The translations under genes and the position numbers were made by a program. A stretch of 64,000 nt of DNA from Candidatus Cloacimonetes bacterium HGW-Cloacimonetes-3 (GTDB lineage Bacteria; Cloacimonadota; Cloacimonadia; Cloacimonadales; Cloacimonadaceae): contig PHBO01000002.1 of the NCBI GenBank assembly GCA_002840645.1, positions 124,001 through 188,000 on the forward strand. The letters run 5' to 3'. The notes under the pieces were generated by a model. That model saw nothing but the letters and a program-made list of their open reading frames with translations. It did no database searches and had not been told where the DNA came from. Shown in pieces: positions 2,863 to 53,259 of the stretch. Every line of letters begins with the position of its first letter. The first letter of the stretch is position 1.

Positions 2863-3701
2863 AAATCCTCCCTGATAATAATAGATACCTTATTCATGTT
2901 TAACCACCTATTTAATCAATTGTTCAATATTTACAACAATCTGCGCCAAGCGTAAGCGATGTAATCAGCGAGCCGGCGGTGCTGTTTCGAGTTTCCAACT
3001 ATGTAAATAATGTAGCATTTTTACATCGCAATATATTCATGGCATTTTAGAACTGCGTTTTGAAAATCAATTTCATTCGATGTGAAAATAAGTGTCAATT
3101 AACAGGTACAATCCATAGATTTGGTCAACATCTCAAATAGTGAACGAGGGAGAGCCACTTCGCTCCAATATCAGCTTCAAAGCTGATTGTATAAGCACTT
3201 CTTGACCTTAGTCACGACGCAATAATATTAATCCACGTGCATTCTGTCAAGAACTTTCTGCGTTTGAGTCCGATTTTTCAAGGGCTTTTAGTATAGAATC
3301 TGTCGCTTTTCTAATTGCCGGTCTGACTATCATTTGTTTATTAAAAACCTCACCGGGAAACGATCCATCAGTCTATGACTTAGGACTCTAAGCACATGAT
3401 CCTTAAGGACGAAATCTAACTTGGGGTTTCAGATGGACAATCAAGAAAATTAAGCATACTAAAGATGATATTGGCAATAAGATATCACAAATCAATACTT
3501 TGATATCGGATTCAGAGAGCAATTGATGTCAGTGTGCTAAATAATGTGACGAAAGTGAAGCGAGTATGTAGCTTCTGCTGAAAGTTAACTATGAAACTAC
3601 TGTAACAGAAATTGTATCTGCCAAATCCCACAATCTGACTCTAATAATACTCGATTTGCCCTTTGTTGCTCCCTTCTCATTTATCTAACAAAGCTCTAAT
3701 A

Positions 3702-3746
3702 ATTCCCTAACAATTCCCTAACGCCATTAGGGAATTGTTAGGGAAT
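3702..3746. repeat. Core of nested palindromic element, copy 1
   Basis: ATTCCCTAACAATTCCCTAA-cgcca-TTAGGGAATTGTTAGGGAAT, 20-bp perfect arms. Outer partial arms TTTGCCCTTTGTTGCT / AGCAAGGGCAAAGG. Confidence 0.9.
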
Positions 3747-3885
3747 CACTATAGAAGCACTAAGGATATTAGCAAGGGCAAAGGGAGGGGGTATTATGGT
3801 TTGGCTTAAAGTGCAGGCACAGGGGAAGTTCGCTTTGATAGGGGTATAGAGAGGGATAAGGCTATTTATCGGGCTTATTTTCTTG

Positions 3886-6569: not shown

Positions 6570-6745
6570 TTTTTTACCTCCATGAAAAGCAGGAGGCTTA
6601 CAGGGCTGATATTTCCACTGTAGCCTTTCCAAAGGGAGGCATGACCGTTTCCCGTCATACCCTATCGGTGGCAGTCCATGCAACAAATGTTTAGGATCAG
6701 CCACTCGGCTGAGTACGAAATGCAAATATGCCCTGTTTCTGTCAA
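6570..6745 (-). ncRNA. Candidate structured 5' leader (riboswitch-like) of the lipoprotein/TonB receptor operon
   Basis: On the minus strand: TTGACA box, then closing helix ACAGGGC/GCCCTGT, hairpin TCAGCC-gagt-GGCTGA, hairpin ATGAC-gggaaacg-GTCAT, hairpin GCCTcccuuuggaaAGGC, and CCTCC-N10-GGAGG masking the Shine-Dalgarno. Confidence 0.55.
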
Positions 6746-10514: not shown

Positions 10515-11855
10515 ATGAAGAGTGCAAGCTATATTATTATATTACTGTTGCTTGGCGCATGTAGCATGGCAACCAAAGAACCTGTATGGATTACTCAGCG
10601 TCCTGCGAATACTGCATACTATTCAGCGGTGGTTCGCTTTTCCAAGAAAGCTCCTAACTATGTGGATTCGGCAAGAGATAATGCCCTGCGCGAGATTTCC
10701 ACGCAGATTAGTGTTCAGATCGATTCCGATATCTATCTGAAAGAAACCGAAGCCAATGGCGTTCCCACCGAGGAACTAATCAGCCAGATTCGCAGTTCCA
10801 GCCGTAACAAGCTTAATGATATTGAGTTAGCAGGGAGCTACGAAACCGATAAGGATTACTGGGCATACTATCGCCTTTCCAAAAGTGCTTATCGTGCCTG
10901 GCGGATTGGGCAGAGGGATATCGCTGTTAGTAGCGCAAAGAATCTCTTGGCAGAGTACGATTCCGTCACAAATGATGCCGTTTCCGGTATCACCTCGCTG
11001 TTAAAAGCCATGGAATTAATCGTGGATTTCACGGATTTGGATTTGGCGGTTATGTACCAGGGAAAGGAAGTGAATCTCTACAACGAGCTTTTTAACCGTT
11101 TACACCGCCTTCCCGAACGCCTCCAGCCCTATATGGAAGAGACCAATCTGGCTGTTGTGGCAAAGCTGCAAAGGGTTTATACTGTTCCCGCGGGGATTAC
11201 TTTCGAAAGTGAAACTGGCAAGTATCCATGCAGGGCTTTCCCGCTGGTGTTCAGTTTCAGCCGGGGAAAGGGTGATCTTGTAAGCAATGCCCAAACCGGT
11301 GGCGATGGTAAAACAGAGATGATCCTCAAAAGAGTGGAGCAATTCACTACTCCCCAACAGATTATCCTTAGTCCGGACAAAAACTACTGGCTTCAGAGCC
11401 TAGAAAATCCTGTTGTGAAGCGTTTGTTCAGCTCGCTAAAGTTCCCTGTTGCCACTCTCTATTTGCAGGTTAGCCGCCCCAAGGCATATATTGACTACTC
11501 CTTCAACGATAAGCCTGGCACAGCCTACAAGGAGATGTTAACAAACAAGTTACAGGATTTGGATATGGATGTGGTGCCAGATGCCTCAGCCAGCGATTTC
11601 ACTTTTAAGGTGATGATAAACAGCCATGAAGGGGATTATGTTCCCAGGCTGAAGCTTTACTCCGCCACGGCTGACGCCTATGTGGAGCTGATTGCTACTA
11701 AGCAGGCAAAGAGCATCTACAACACCAATGTTACAGGTATCAAGTGTACCGGCTCTACCCGCGAAAATGCCCTTAGAAACTGCGAGTTAAACGGAGTAGC
11801 GGAGATTTCGGACATGCTGCTGTTTATGCTTGTAGAACAGTATATCATGAATTAG
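10515..11855 (+). CDS. LPP20-family-like lipoprotein
   Basis: Lipobox LLGACS; 'EPVWITQRPANTAYYSAVVRFSKKAPNYVDSARDNALREISTQISVQIDSDI'. Adjacent to the CsgG-like gene. Confidence 0.75.
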   Translation: MKSASYIIILLLLGACSMATKEPVWITQRPANTAYYSAVVRFSKKAPNYVDSARDNALREISTQISVQIDSDIYLKETEANGVPTEELISQIRSSSRNKLNDIELAGSYETDKDYWAYYRLSKSAYRAWRIGQRDIAVSSAKNLLAEYDSVTNDAVSGITSLLKAMELIVDFTDLDLAVMYQGKEVNLYNELFNRLHRLPERLQPYMEETNLAVVAKLQRVYTVPAGITFESETGKYPCRAFPLVFSFSRGKGDLVSNAQTGGDGKTEMILKRVEQFTTPQQIILSPDKNYWLQSLENPVVKRLFSSLKFPVATLYLQVSRPKAYIDYSFNDKPGTAYKEMLTNKLQDLDMDVVPDASASDFTFKVMINSHEGDYVPRLKLYSATADAYVELIATKQAKSIYNTNVTGIKCTGSTRENALRNCELNGVAEISDMLLFMLVEQYIMN

Positions 11856-11914: not shown

Positions 11915-12115
11915 GTTTGACTTTAAAAGTGTCGCTTACGCCTTCTTTCGCCTATCCGCCAACTTCACCGCGACAATTTTTGAGTTAAACTGCTGAACCT
12001 TACAACGAATCCACCTTATGCTACGTTCACAGCCTTAGTTTAACTCTCACCTGAAGCCGCTTAAGATACAGCTAAAGGCAAAGCTCTCTGATGGCTTCAG
12101 GTGAAAGTCAAACCA
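11915..12115. repeat. Two-hairpin composite palindromic element, copy 1 (full length)
   Basis: Outer 10-bp inverted repeat GTTTGACTTT...AAAGTCAAAC; inner GAGTTAAAC (11982-11990) and GTTTAACTC (12038-12046). Hairpin B is 12038-12113. Confidence 0.85.
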
Positions 12116-14087: not shown

Positions 14088-14129
14088 TCCGGTAACCCTC
14101 CCGTATCGCGATACGGGAGGGTTACCGGA
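14088..14129. repeat. 42-bp perfect palindrome
   Basis: TCCGGTAACCCTCCCGTATCGCGATACGGGAGGGTTACCGGA. Confidence 0.95.
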
Positions 14130-24928: not shown

Positions 24929-25222
24929 TAAACCTCCAGGCAATGTGTTATAATATAATAGTAACTCATCTGAAGGAGGAAGCAAAATAAATAATACAGT
25001 TAACGTTAATATCCATCCACGGTAAACCATTTTGGGTATCAAAGGATGCTTCTTAACGTAATTGTATATGTGATTCCTCCTTCCTTGCTTTTCAATGAGA
25101 GTATAAAACCGGCACACTTTCAAGTTATAAGGACAGAAAATTCAACACCTATCTTAGGATAAAGCATCCCGCCTGTAACCATGGGTATTGTGTGCTTACT
25201 ACTTTCACTGCCCTTGCTTGTA

Positions 25223-25307
25223 TCTCTTATACTTCCATAACAATCCTCTAATACATCCCTAATGGCGTTAGGGAATCGTTAGGGAATTGTTATGGAAGTA
25301 TAAGAGA
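25223..25307. repeat. Nested palindromic element, copy 2 (inverted relative to 3702 copy)
   Basis: Perfect 22-bp outer arms TCTCTTATACTTCCATAACAAT / ATTGTTATGGAAGTATAAGAGA around TCCCTAATGGCGTTAGGGA. Confidence 0.92.
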
Positions 25308-25381
25308 AAATAGCAAGGACAAGGTAGGGAAAGCGAAAGTTATTGACAGAAATCCCCCTCGCAAGTTTTTGGGTGCATCTG

Positions 25382-34836: not shown

Positions 34837-35290
34837 CGTATAATCTCCACATTATTGTTTATATACATTTTGACGGTTTTCATTCCACGAGAAATGAGTT
34901 AACCCCTCTATTAGGTTATGAACACTCTTTGAAAGCATGTAACAGTAACCCACTCACGTTGATCTTTCTACCCTTCGTCAGCACAAGTGTTAGCTCGGAA
35001 TTCCTTTCCAAAGTCCATTAGCGGGATATGATAACCTGTACCGATAAAGCCTTTAGCAGGGCTACATTGATATTCCATTTCCGATAATCTACGATCAATA
35101 ATGCAAGAATCTTGATAGGATTATTTATGTCAAGTTTAAATTAAGGGTAATTCCTGCAAGATTAACCACCGCTTTCTACGCCTGCATTTAGGGTTATTAC
35201 CTAATTCACACATAATTTGGCAGCATACCACTCCAGAATGTAGTTTGTAACATTTGGCAAATAAAGGACAACCGTACATGCCCGTGTAGG

Positions 35291-35483
35291 GCATAAAATG
35301 TAAAGTCCACAGTGTAGGCGTAGCCGTAACTGTGGGTTAATGTGATTAACCCAAACAAGCCCCTCGGGGGCGTTACAATTGCATTTTGTACTACACACAT
35401 GAATTACCCACGAGGGGTTTGCATTATGGCGTTGTTACCCACAGTTCCGGCTGCGCCTTCACTGTGGGCTTTGCATCTTATGC
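35291..35483. repeat. ~190-nt foldback with 50-nt arms (42/50 complementary) and internal subhairpins
   Basis: Left 35291-35340 GCATAAAATGTAAAGTCCACAGTGTAGGCGTAGCCGTAACTGTGGGTTAA versus reverse complement of right 35434-35483 GCATAAGATGCAAAGCCCACAGTGAAGGCGCAGCCGGAACTGTGGGTAAC. Confidence 0.9.
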
Positions 35484-35570
35484 TCCCAAGGGGCTTTCGT
35501 TTATCGTTTTATTGTATTGCATTTTGCGTTAATCATACCTGTACTGTACCTGCAATCCATCCATATCGTT

Positions 35571-35609
35571 CCCGTAACCCTCCCGTATCCGATACGGGAG
35601 GGTTACGGG
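35571..35609. repeat. 39-bp perfect palindrome, related to 14088-14129
   Basis: CCCGTAACCCTCCCGTATC-C-GATACGGGAGGGTTACGGG. Confidence 0.95.
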
Positions 35610-49800: not shown

Positions 49801-49947
49801 ATGGTGCGGGAAACCTTTACGTTTTATAACCAAATATCGGATTTGGGCAGGAGCTGGCTGCAACCTCATTTCATTCTTTTCTCGGAGTATCTGTATGAAC
49901 ACGAAAGTCTCTCTGCCTTGCTAAGCTTAAAGTTTACCGAGGTTTAA
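46864..49947 (+). CDS. GNAT N-acetyltransferase domain fused to a ~850-aa beta-rich region of unknown function
   Basis: ATG 46864 after GGAGG; GNAT motif 'VAYIELISVDPEHHGTGIGKILMQKCVLRAAELGYQRIDLFTWAGNTKAVPLYKKCGF'. Confidence 0.85.
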   Translation: MEQVSFVDYHIQYAKALAEMWNRSASGWMGRAFNSSEEKVLDEEGRGSYLNLYLAVKGNKVLGYAKLTKYSEEKDVAYIELISVDPEHHGTGIGKILMQKCVLRAAELGYQRIDLFTWAGNTKAVPLYKKCGFFWEKMESQATHLMNFIPGLLNNELLKPYFEFFHWYDDNKRPLLTEPDGRKVNGFDLYDYIWEKDGKRLHICFERCGRGIVAINTSDFDIQIEIADAKPVFGDSYSANYQLTNHTCEPVEIMLKGADDDVVRNEFHISETVTGSIERESEFFIAPVNRTLTEWESCPGLKTIVSWAGKEIVMKTGLHIQYPLSVNLRMQSSLVIPGRQDIMYLNVHNHFPTACSYHIELPGEAPLTLLQNNFEISLQADEKAFIPVDYISQGSLVYNPQIKVMAFPDSGNKLEFEVECFTTMSALNSMSAKNMQERISLLNGQYSVYILKTSNKNWGGFHSIFGSRFDFCAPQIGLPYSEEFDTELPYDIQIEEHGSMLQLTLKYLSKDNAGVDFGYIYSLYPTGLMELRLKIYAIPEPQNKYFAYLKLGINEKNISFEQNGSLVQVEEDFPETYLNSFAKDSLSGNWMYSQIDDATSAVIWNPEFMPKLGNYWLCWELDLNKIQSMEHQELLVASMYLDIFRNCYQTRNAALGYRKPVEIIQPTLELVVNEGNPILTKPYQVKLIQHLDRGLRGKFKLDTEDGLSLAPQVTASEADNIREVRWDVENLPEQALELVTCDAALSSVSVKRSQLCLMGRGEVNVFNRDKLLIAENGCLSITSAKDARLPGLISLKYNGAEYLDAGYPDYAPKSYHNPYQGGLSIIPNQLRASVLIHETHDTSSIKVQDQFGNLWTGLAITTTISNFEPMKGLIFRQCFVMHPSVPVLVLLTELVRNNGWAQFVGFNCSTSYKHEENIRDLQLMFPKTDKQWLTLFPGKEQMGLQDYYYNMAAKGMDTDAYMQVFHLSRCSHYVHMDSAMVRETFTFYNQISDLGRSWLQPHFILFSEYLYEHESLSALLSLKFTEV

Positions 49948-49950
49948 GAT

Positions 49951-50203
49951 GGAGTTCAAACGGCTGCACCGTCCTAGCAACAAGATGGAGTTCAAATGGC
50001 TTTTCCCAACTTATACCATAGCAATAGGTTCAGCAGCCGTTTGGACTTCATCGGGCGTTGCCCATAAGCAAGCTAAACTATCTAAGTAGAACTTGGCTGA
50101 ACCTTGTTAATCTCCCAAACCTGAAATCCCGGCTTGAAGTCCATGAGGCTAATTAATGGGTAACACGCATATAGCAACGTAAGCCTCATGAACTCCAACC
50201 CGG
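49951..50203. repeat. Two-hairpin foldback cluster
   Basis: Hairpin A GGAGTTCAAACGGCTGC (49951) / GCAGCCGTTTGGACTTC (ends 50049); hairpin B CCGGCTTGAAGTCCATGAGGCT (50129) / AGCCTCATGAACTCCAACCCGG (ends 50203). Confidence 0.82.
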
Positions 50204-50281
50204 TTTTTCATGTTAACACCGATACCTGCTTTTCATGTACCCAGCTTTCCTCCACCTTGCTCTCCGCACCCGCACAGAACC

Positions 50282-50335
50282 GGGGTTCATCGGGGGTTAA
50301 ACGGGCAAAAGCCCGATGAACCCCCGATGAACCCC
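50282..50335. repeat. 54-bp near-perfect palindrome with internal direct repeat
   Basis: GGGGTTCATCGGGGGTTAAACGGGC-aaaa-GCCCGATGAACCCCCGATGAACCCC, 22/25 complementary. Confidence 0.92.
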
Positions 50336-50436
50336 ACTTCGATTCGCTTTCAGCCAGCAAGGAAGGTAGCGCAGCATTTTAATGCTGCGAAAACCGAGAA
50401 CAAAGAGCTGTAACCATAGTTCACGGCAGGCAAGTT

Positions 50437-50653
50437 GTTTGGCTTAAATAGTGTCGCAAAGATAATTACGCCTATGACTTATCTACACTGCGACACTTTT
50501 TGAGTTAAACAACTGGGTTACTCAACAAACAGCAGACTCGCCCCACCGAAACCACCCACTCCTTCCAGATGCTTAGTTTAACTCTCACTTGAAGCCGCTT
50601 GAGATATTGGTGTTTGTATAGCTGGCGGATGGCTTCAAGTGAAAGTCAAACCA
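50437..50653. repeat. Two-hairpin composite palindromic element, copy 2 (full length)
   Basis: GTTTGGCTTAAATAGTGTCGCA...TGCGACACTTTTTGAGTTAAAC (50437-50510) and GTTTAACTCTCACTTGAAGCC...GGCTTCAAGTGAAAGTCAAAC (50576-50651). Confidence 0.88.
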
Positions 50654-50748
50654 GCCGTATGTAAACTAAAAGCTTGACCTTAAACAAGGGTCTTATTTAT
50701 TATGTACATGTGGGATATGTCAGTATTGGTGGTTACCTGGGAGGTAAA

Positions 50749-51489
50749 ATGAAAAAAAGCACTGTATCGATCATGATGCTTATTGGCTTAACAATAAACC
50801 TTGCTGCAGTTACGACATTACGAGTCCATGATACTGCACCAAAATACCGTATCACTTATGAAGTGATAAATCCAAAATTTGTTCCGGACAATTTTTCGTG
50901 TAATACATATGAGGAATTACAGAATCATCATTTTCAAATTCCGGATACACTATTGAAGGAGCTTACAAACGAAGAACTGGTAAAATACATTCTTAGCACA
51001 ACCGAGTATTCTTTAAGCCCTGATTTTTCAGTATGGAACAATGATTTTTCTGGTTTTAACGGGTATAATGAGTTAATTCGCAGGTCAGTCTGGGCAGATG
51101 ACATCATTAACCTCTCAGGAAAGTACCTGGATGAAAGAAACGGTGTTATGTTCTTTCAATCTGTTCGTTTTTCCACGATGCACGATGTTTATACAAAAAT
51201 GACGTTTCAACAACAGCAACAAATCCTAATGAATCTAAAAGGATTCTTATCCTTTCAAGAATCATCTCCTGAATATGTATTTGTAAGTCTGATTGGGGAT
51301 GACCTCTGTTATTGGGCTGGTGCGATTATTGAAAGCTATTATGCATCCGATATAGGCAGTTTAATAACAATAATGCGTCCATACTTTGAAAATTGGGTGA
51401 AAGATCCAGTTAGCTTAGTCCGCTCAGAGTTACAAAAGGCAATAGATTCAGGTATGCATATCGAGGTCGGCTATGAAAACAAGAATTAA
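50749..51489 (+). CDS. Secreted protein of unknown function
   Basis: ATG 50749 after GGGAGG; MKKSTVSIMMLIGLTINLAA signal peptide. Confidence 0.7.
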   Translation: MKKSTVSIMMLIGLTINLAAVTTLRVHDTAPKYRITYEVINPKFVPDNFSCNTYEELQNHHFQIPDTLLKELTNEELVKYILSTTEYSLSPDFSVWNNDFSGFNGYNELIRRSVWADDIINLSGKYLDERNGVMFFQSVRFSTMHDVYTKMTFQQQQQILMNLKGFLSFQESSPEYVFVSLIGDDLCYWAGAIIESYYASDIGSLITIMRPYFENWVKDPVSLVRSELQKAIDSGMHIEVGYENKN

Positions 51490-51516
51490 AGTTCAGTTAC
51501 TAATTCTGTTTGATTG

Positions 51517-51687
51517 AAGTCTGGAGTCGATCAGGCTTAAATAACTATGGCATGATAAGAAGCAATTTAGCCTGATAGACTACAGCGATGCCGGGGTATT
51601 GTATAGCCGGAGGTCGCTGTAGTCCATATCGCTGCATAGCTGGTTATTATCCTCAAAGTTTATTTAAGCGATATCGACTCCAGACTT
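51517..51687. repeat. Cloverleaf-like foldback element
   Basis: Outer perfect 15-bp AAGTCTGGAGTCGAT / ATCGACTCCAGACTT enclosing three smaller dyads, including GACTACAGCGA / TCGCTGTAGTC (51578-51624). Confidence 0.88.
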
Positions 51688-51873
51688 GTATGGGTGGATA
51701 ACTTCTTAATAACCAGCTTATTACCTTTTTCTCTCTTTGCCTCTTTTTTAATCCCCCCTCTGCTTTTCTCAGCTTTTCTCTGCTTTCCCTCTGTGTTAAA
51801 AAAGAAACCCAAACTAGTTCTCCTTGTTTTACAAAAACCACGACATCTGTCCCTATAACTACCCACAACCCCA

Positions 51874-51962
51874 CAGATGCTTAGTTTAACTCTCACATGA
51901 AGCCGCTTGAGAGATCGGTAAATGCAAGGTTCTTGGATGACTCCAAGTGAAAGTCAAACCAG
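51874..51962. repeat. Composite palindromic element, copy 3 (right hairpin only)
   Basis: CAGATGCTTAGTTTAACTCTCACATGAAGCCGCTTGAGA...TGACTCCAAGTGAAAGTCAAACCAG, aligned with copies 1 and 2. Confidence 0.9.
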
Positions 51963-52056
51963 CATCGTGCTAACGATAAATCCGTTATCGCTTGACAAAT
52001 ATCGGCTTGCTATGTGTTGTGCCTGCACACAAAAAAAGCAGAACAGGAAGAACAAA

Positions 52057-53259
52057 ATGGCTTTTGAACATGAACTGAAGATCATCAGCCGGGGCGTGGA
52101 AGAGATCATCCCCCTGGCGGAGCTGAAAGATAAATTTGCATCCTCTGCCAAGCTTGGCAGACCACTCAGGATAAAATACGGGATAGATCCCACCGGTTAC
52201 GACGTACACATCGGGCATTTGGTGCCGATTCGCAAGATGCGTGAGTTTCAGGATTTGGGGCACACCGGGGTTATCATCATTGGTGATTTCACGGCGCAGA
52301 TAGGTGATCCCACCGGAAGAGATGAATCCCGCCCACCCTTGACTTTCGACCAGATAAAGTATAACAGCGAAAAATACATGGAACAGCTATACACGGTGCT
52401 GAAGCCCGAACAAACCGAAGTGCGCTATCAGAGCGAGTGGTTCGGCAAGATGAGCATGAGCGATGTATTGAAGATGATGGGTAAGTTTACCCTGGCGCAG
52501 TTTATGGCGCATGACACCTTCCGTAACCGCTACGAGCAAGGCTTGTCGCTTGGTATGCACGAGATAATGTATCCCATTCTGCAAGGTTATGATTCCGTTG
52601 CCATTGCCAGCGATGTGGAGCTTGGTGCTACGGAGCAGAAGTTCAACATCCTTTGTGGACGCGATATGCAGCGGTACTTTGGCATGGAGCAGCAGATTGC
52701 CGTGCTGTCACCCATCCTGCTTGGCACGGATGGCGTGAATAAGATGGGGAAATCGCTGAATAACTATATTGCTGTGTTTGATCCGCCTAACGAGAAGTTT
52801 GGCAAGGTGATGAGCATCCCCGATAGCCTGATCATGAACTATTTTTGCTATGCCACTACCACTGCTGCGGAGGATTTGGAAACAATCAAAGCAGAGCTGG
52901 CAAGCGGGACGAATCCCATGATACTAAAGAAGCGTTTGGCAAGAGACATAGTTAGCTTGTATCACGGAAATCAGGCAGCGGTGGAAGCGCAGGAAGCGTT
53001 TGAGAAGCTGTTTTCTAATAAAGAAATACCGGAAGATATCCCTGAGTTTAGCACTTCAGAAAGCAGCTACAAGCTGGTGAAGCTGCTAACCGATAGCGGG
53101 CTTTGTGCCGGCAGCGGAGAAGCCAAACGCCTGATTCAGGGCGGCGGAGTATCTATTGATGGCGAGAAAGTTACCTCCATTGATGCTATGCTGGAATTGG
53201 CAGACGGCTCTGTGCTGCGTGCCGGAAAGCGGAAGTTTATTAAAATCAGGAAGATATGA
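52057..53259 (+). CDS. tyrS: Tyrosyl-tRNA synthetase
   Basis: 'RIKYGIDPTGYDVHIGHLVPIRKMREFQDLGHTGVIIIGDFTAQIGDPTGR' (HIGH region), 'KMGKSLNN' (KMSKS-like), C-terminal S4 domain 'SGEAKRLIQGGGVSIDGEKV'. Start MAFEHEL at 52057. Confidence 0.95.
   Translation: MAFEHELKIISRGVEEIIPLAELKDKFASSAKLGRPLRIKYGIDPTGYDVHIGHLVPIRKMREFQDLGHTGVIIIGDFTAQIGDPTGRDESRPPLTFDQIKYNSEKYMEQLYTVLKPEQTEVRYQSEWFGKMSMSDVLKMMGKFTLAQFMAHDTFRNRYEQGLSLGMHEIMYPILQGYDSVAIASDVELGATEQKFNILCGRDMQRYFGMEQQIAVLSPILLGTDGVNKMGKSLNNYIAVFDPPNEKFGKVMSIPDSLIMNYFCYATTTAAEDLETIKAELASGTNPMILKKRLARDIVSLYHGNQAAVEAQEAFEKLFSNKEIPEDIPEFSTSESSYKLVKLLTDSGLCAGSGEAKRLIQGGGVSIDGEKVTSIDAMLELADGSVLRAGKRKFIKIRKI

Follow-up and report, generated by a model that had tools for sequence, protein, structure and literature searches.

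What kind of element is made of two long hairpins set side by side in intergenic DNA, and how could it have reached several sites of the same genome? The question arises from the 64,000-nt stretch of a Cloacimonadota genome analysed here (the window), in which a sequence-only reading had described a composite of two hairpins, A and B, in three copies, the last of them reduced to hairpin B, and had proposed a structured non-autonomous mobile element, a transcriptional insulator or terminator, or a small RNA. All the sequence features stated in that reading were found in the window: hairpin B is exactly 76 nt long in its three copies (Table 1), and both the compensatory change from C:G to T:A and the A/A mismatch of copy 3 had been reported correctly.

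One hairpin element in two orientations

Hairpins A and B, formerly taken for separate parts, turned out to be variants of a single element placed in opposite orientations; indeed, the five hairpins of the window are all one element when read on the strand that carries the G.T wobbles. The base of its 21-bp stem has GTTTGACTT in the 5' arm and (A/G)AGTTAAAC in the 3' arm; above this base, a free upper stem of 12 bp encloses a loop of ~33 nt. The short boxes X and X', which had been placed at the flanks of the hairpins, instead form the base of each 21-bp stem, where G.T wobbles join them on one strand and A.C mismatches arise on the opposite strand.

Table 1. Hairpins of the family and spacers in the window, and hairpin pairs beside the RAYT gene on contig C28 (CM, covariance model).
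Feature	Location	Coordinates	Strand	Details
Hairpin A, copy 1	Window	11915-11990	+	76 nt; 21-position stem; GTTTGACTT...GAGTTAAAC; CM match 68 bits
Spacer between inverted hairpins, copy 1	Window	11991-12037		47 bp
Hairpin B, copy 1	Window	12038-12113	-	Functional orientation is the minus strand; CM match 86.7 bits
Hairpin A, copy 2	Window	50437-50510	+	74 nt; GTTTGGCTT...GAGTTAAAC; CM match 72.5 bits
Spacer, copy 2	Window	50511-50575		65 bp
Hairpin B, copy 2	Window	50576-50651	-	CM match 84.2 bits
Lone hairpin B, copy 3	Window	51884-51959	-	Upstream of tyrS; stem partly decayed; CM match 76.5 bits; DNA-parameter fold z = -1.5
Hairpin pair upstream of RAYT	Contig C28	217037-217111, 217154-217228	+, -	
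Hairpin pair downstream of RAYT	Contig C28	217866-217940, 217970-218044	+, -	

Copy number and arrangement in the genome

The 2.68-Mb genome was searched with a covariance model of 16 hairpins, and 24 distinct family members were detected at a cut-off of E<=2.1e-4. The search over the genome and its relatives, which the sequence-only reading had recommended as a check, did retrieve further copies, and the three copies counted before become at least 24 good hairpins genome-wide. Two weak matches (C15:137250 and C28:76165), which are members of a second hairpin family, were left out of this count, and exact-pattern controls read backwards gave 0 matches. With mechanical ORFs disregarded, nearly every copy falls between genes, and the orientation of the surrounding genes is mixed. 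All eight strong pairs (8/8) are ordered plus then minus, that is, head-to-head. The usual unit is two long hairpins in head-to-head inversion, dispersed in intergenic DNA.

Stem structure, covariation and element edges

In the 16-sequence alignment, 96.7% of the cells pair, compared with 74.5% in shuffles, and double changes occur at 12 of the 21 pairs. Covariation in a larger alignment, another check called for earlier, was assessed on a set of 47 distinct hairpins drawn from three genomes: pairing in the upper stem amounts to 88%, versus 55% after arm shuffling (at most 64.5% among 2000 shuffles). At the base, 46/47 hairpins have G.T at position 5 and 42/47 have T.G at position 9. With so little variation at the base, which is conserved in sequence, the support from covariation is for the upper stem, and the near-invariant wobbles of the lower stem alone do not prove pairing there. 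Judged by DNA parameters, stability favours the wobble strand in only 36 of the 47 hairpins, with a mean difference of only 1.45 kcal/mol.

The outer 5' flank is uninformative, no position exceeding 0.12 bits, and a weak conserved tail, RAGG (0.4-0.6 bits), is found on the inner 3' side, which suggests that the edge of the element is the outer base of the hairpins. A GT[AG]G foot was present within 8 nt of only 3/47 hairpins, as occurs by chance, and the canonical GTAG mark is thus missing from this family.

A RAYT gene flanked by hairpin pairs

The same hairpin pairs lie on both flanks of an open reading frame on contig C28 of the same genome (G000) that encodes a REP-associated tyrosine transposase (RAYT; a TnpA_REP-like HUH/Y1 transposase), which is the layout of a REPtron (Table 1). 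The protein carries the HUH motif NHFH and the tyrosine motif YIHANP, matches Y1_Tnp above cut-off, and hits the NCBIfam model NF047646 (REP_Tyr_transpos) with E=1.6e-15, below that model's cut-off; furthermore, the RAYT-family alignment profile retrieves E. coli TnpArep (4er8) with E=9.6e-10. The residues W94, Q95, E100, H101 and R104, through which E. coli TnpA_REP contacts GTAG (PMC6006769), are absent, their positions being occupied by F, R, N, K and M in an alignment read by eye.

A transposase gene bordered by hairpins could also mean that a complete IS200/IS605-type insertion sequence moves as a unit and that the hairpins are its ends or MITEs derived from it by deletion. The presence of hairpin pairs on both sides of a gene of the same HUH/Y1 superfamily would agree with it, as would the one IS200-type protein that the genome also encodes. 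However, the hairpins are numerous, yet the RAYT gene occurs once and its paralogues are all of low identity; each flank bears an inverted hairpin pair, as in REPtrons, instead of the single subterminal hairpins of insertion sequences; and both the profile and the motif (Y---NP) fit TnpA_REP and not IS200. We consider this origin very unlikely.

Hairpins and RAYTs in relatives

Among 98 relatives, strong covariance-model matches were limited to two genomes of the same genus, weaker variant hairpins appeared in other members of the family, and no matches were obtained outside the family. Orthologues of the RAYT (51-60% identity) were found in the Cloacimonadota genomes G001, G008, G015 and G017, and in every case hairpin variants TTTTGAC...GTTAAAA adjoin the gene. 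The single-contig genome G008 (2,246,820 bp) contains 55 exact-pattern hairpins versus 0 in the backwards control, in arrays clustered at its RAYT, where 33 of 35 neighbours are opposite in orientation and each opposite-orientation pair joins two different stem types. On a broader scale, hairpins occur on both sides in 29 of the 91 RAYT relatives with usable flanks, compared with 0 for shuffled flanks. In Cyanobacteria/Ignavibacteria, RAYT relatives of ~31-36% identity (loci L148, L156, L182, L192 and L200) were also seen to be flanked by uniform long-stem hairpins, and at L156 the hairpin AGGGGACAGGTTCCT...AGGAACCTGTCCCCT is present in five copies.

The coupling of RAYT and hairpin is imperfect across genomes: hairpins are present and the orthologous RAYT is absent in G005 and G006 (assemblies ~80% complete), and G016 (99% complete) has ~18 hairpins and only one Y1 gene, unrelated at 1e-10. 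Loss of the RAYT gene is known for REP systems (PMC6006769).

Orthologous positions were compared as well. The copy 3 hairpin is absent in G005, G007, G008, G004 and G002, where the tyrS promoter region is conserved, and in seven genomes no hairpin lies behind the orthologue of the gene preceding copy 1. Because gene identity reaches only ~75-80% even in the closest relatives, intergenic DNA can be aligned only through the tyrS promoter and is too diverged for a clean empty site. As far as these comparisons reach, the pattern of presence and absence would fit dispersal by the RAYT. They also bear on the TTGAC boxes that the sequence-only reading had linked to each copy: the boxes do exist (12141, 50674 and ~51992), but promoter-like matches are about as numerous as in shuffled sequence, and the tyrS box is independent of the element, being conserved in relatives that lack the hairpin.

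RNA element or integron site?

A transcribed RNA element, either a hairpin at the 3' end of a transcript (terminator or mRNA stabiliser) or a small RNA, would account for the strong covariation and the conserved G.U-type pairs as consequences of RNA structure. The intergenic location is also compatible with it, and some copies lie shortly 3' of a stop codon, copy 1 beginning 59 bp past the one at 11855. Nevertheless, the copies are mostly head-to-head pairs, and therefore one hairpin of each pair is always in the "wrong" sense, with both orientations occurring together whatever the direction of the mixed surrounding genes. Terminator-like sites are at shuffle level and never coincide with hairpins: none was detected in the copy 1 region, the two in 49940-52080 equal the shuffle expectation and lie off the hairpins, and no hairpin shows a GC-rich stem followed by a T run, as in an intrinsic terminator. 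A scan of the window against Rfam gave no family at the hairpins, which, furthermore, flank a transposase gene and form arrays. The insulator/terminator and small RNA proposals are not supported on these grounds, and we regard an RNA element of any such type as improbable.

Integron attC sites have RYYYAAC/GTTRRRY boxes and are active as folded single strands. That the hairpins are attC-like sites folded for a tyrosine recombinase has a negligible chance of being correct: GTTTAAC and GTTAAAC do fit those boxes, but the only two tyrosine recombinases in the genome best match XerD and XerC and fall far below the integron-integrase cut-off, no integron integrase was found in the genome, and the sites are inverted pairs beside RAYT genes instead of a same-direction cassette array. 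The element is neither a riboswitch, a terminator, a small RNA nor an integron attC.

A probable REP/REPIN-like repeat and its putative mode of dispersal

Dispersed multi-copy intergenic stem-loops, inverted pairs or alternating arrays, and hairpins flanking a RAYT, the traits by which REP/REPIN systems are recognised, are all found here. The element is in all probability a REP/REPIN-like non-autonomous repeat of this Cloacimonadota bacterium, most likely dispersed by a RAYT acting on a folded single strand. Of the proposals made earlier, the structured non-autonomous mobile element is the one supported, in view of the dispersed intergenic copies, their mostly head-to-head pairing, their lack at orthologous positions and their location around the RAYT gene.

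For TnpA_REP, recognition is limited to one strand of the single-stranded REP (PMC8266576), and by analogy the pair was most likely dispersed through a RAYT that recognises the folded hairpin in a strand-specific way. On DNA in single-stranded form, as at a replication fork, the RAYT would bind one strand of the hairpin, discriminating it through the conserved lower stem TTTGACTT/(A/G)AGTTAAA, which offers two G.T wobbles versus A.C mismatches on the complement. Nicking and rejoining at the hairpin might then copy or move the pair to new sites. In the upper stem only pairing would be needed, so its sequence could drift by compensatory change while the hairpin as a whole remains close to 75 nt long. 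An influence on the expression of neighbouring genes is putative and would be secondary.

Relation to known systems

The Cloacimonadota element resembles the REP/BIME/REPIN repeats and REPtrons of E. coli, Pseudomonas and Stenotrophomonas (Quentin 2018, PMC6006769; Corneloup 2021, PMC8266576; Bertels and Rainey 2011, PMC3116915) in its intergenic hairpins, inverted pairs and alternating arrays, in its two stem subtypes paired as heterodimers, in its imperfect, strand-distinguishing stems, and in the association of each hairpin family with one RAYT, whose gene lies between hairpins of that family. In contrast to canonical REPs, which are 20-50 nt long and carry a GT[AG]G foot, it lacks that foot, spans 74-77 nt (up to ~112 nt in relatives), has a large loop and a base that is conserved and paired, with two G.T wobbles, and reaches only tens of copies; the GTAG-reading residues are likewise replaced in its RAYT.

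A second point of comparison is provided by the TIRtrons, whose TIRYT genes (Di Nocera 2013, PMC3733652; subclass 2.1 in PMC6006769) are RAYT-like, lack GTAG repeats and are flanked by inverted or partly self-complementary repeats, some of which are dispersed families in dimers, as in Cloacimonadota. TIRtron repeats mostly share GGGGWSAS, whereas the hairpins described here are uniform, with covarying stems. When motifs alone are compared, the C28 RAYT (NHFH, FR, YIHANP) resembles subclass 2.1/TIRYT proteins (NH[YF]H, W[EQ]/FQ, Y[IV]HLNP), sharing NH[YF]H, F for W, and YIH-NP with them. REP-like hairpins have been reported absent from TnpA_Y1 subclass 2.1 (PMC6006769). Subclass 2.6 and class 3 (PMC6006769) are alike in that their Y1 genes are flanked by non-GTAG secondary structures recurring elsewhere in the genome; however, these structures are described as weak or atypical, subclass 2.6 is from Bacteroidetes, and class 3 has a CnGA foot and a Y----Q motif, unlike the Y---NP of the C28 RAYT.

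Because RAYT-like genes with non-GTAG, partly self-complementary flanking repeats were already described (Di Nocera 2013, PMC3733652), this is not a new kind of system; what is unusual about it is a presumed recognition base that is paired and free of GTAG. The sequence-only reading had stated that assignment to a catalogued MITE/REP family would speak against its proposal: the kind of element, REP, is indeed catalogued, but no described family was found, and the open-access literature searched yielded no paper on these repeats of Cloacimonadota. It is conceivable, though somewhat short of probable, that these elements form a GTAG-independent REP/RAYT class, in which RAYTs of a supposedly REP-less subclass carry cognate hairpins read via a paired base in which a GACT/AGTC core is conserved and two G.T wobbles, four pairs apart, mark the strand; such a rule would be common across Cloacimonadota, the families diverging with their RAYT.

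REP elements have been studied mostly in Proteobacteria, with a GTAG tag, and the present family has a different, fully paired base as its presumed recognition site. Naturally diverged RAYT/hairpin pairs in a deep-branching, largely uncultured phylum offer a ready set for testing single-strand recognition by domesticated transposases, as well as transposase-repeat co-evolution. In addition, palindromic intergenic repeats of Cloacimonadota genomes gain an annotation.

A second hairpin family and other structured repeats

Two paralogous RAYTs, encoded on contigs C12 and C26 and 38-39% identical to the C28 protein, are flanked by a family of their own, GGAGTTC...GGACTTC, with 26 exact-pattern copies in the genome of the window and 0 in the backwards control. 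Since these paralogues carry a separate family, each RAYT goes with its own hairpin; thus, different RAYT lineages correspond to different hairpins, and a similar lower-stem pattern is retained. One head-to-head pair of this second family is located in the window, directly 3' of a gene ending at 49947 (49948-50052, plus strand; 50118-50214, minus strand; TGGAGTTC...GGACTTCA).

Several other structured sequences were observed in the window. A complex inverted repeat at 51517-51687, with outer arms CTGGAGTCGAT / ATCGACTCCAG and an inner hairpin ACTACAGCGA / TCGCTGTAGT, is possibly a third repeat family. A long imperfect inverted repeat with 58-nt arms spans 35280-35494 and includes, inside the arms, shorter self-complementary blocks around CCACAGTG / CACTGTGG. 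Two related hairpins of TTAGGGAATTGTTAGGGAAT-like repeats are found at 3694-3754 and 25209-25321, and two perfect, almost loop-free hairpins with 21- and 19-nt arms, at 14088-14129 and 35571-35609, have GTAACCCTCCCGTATC / GATACGGGAGGGTTAC in common. Finally, a Molybdenum/tungsten cofactor riboswitch (RF01055, 62.7 bits) lies on the minus strand at 6606-6722.
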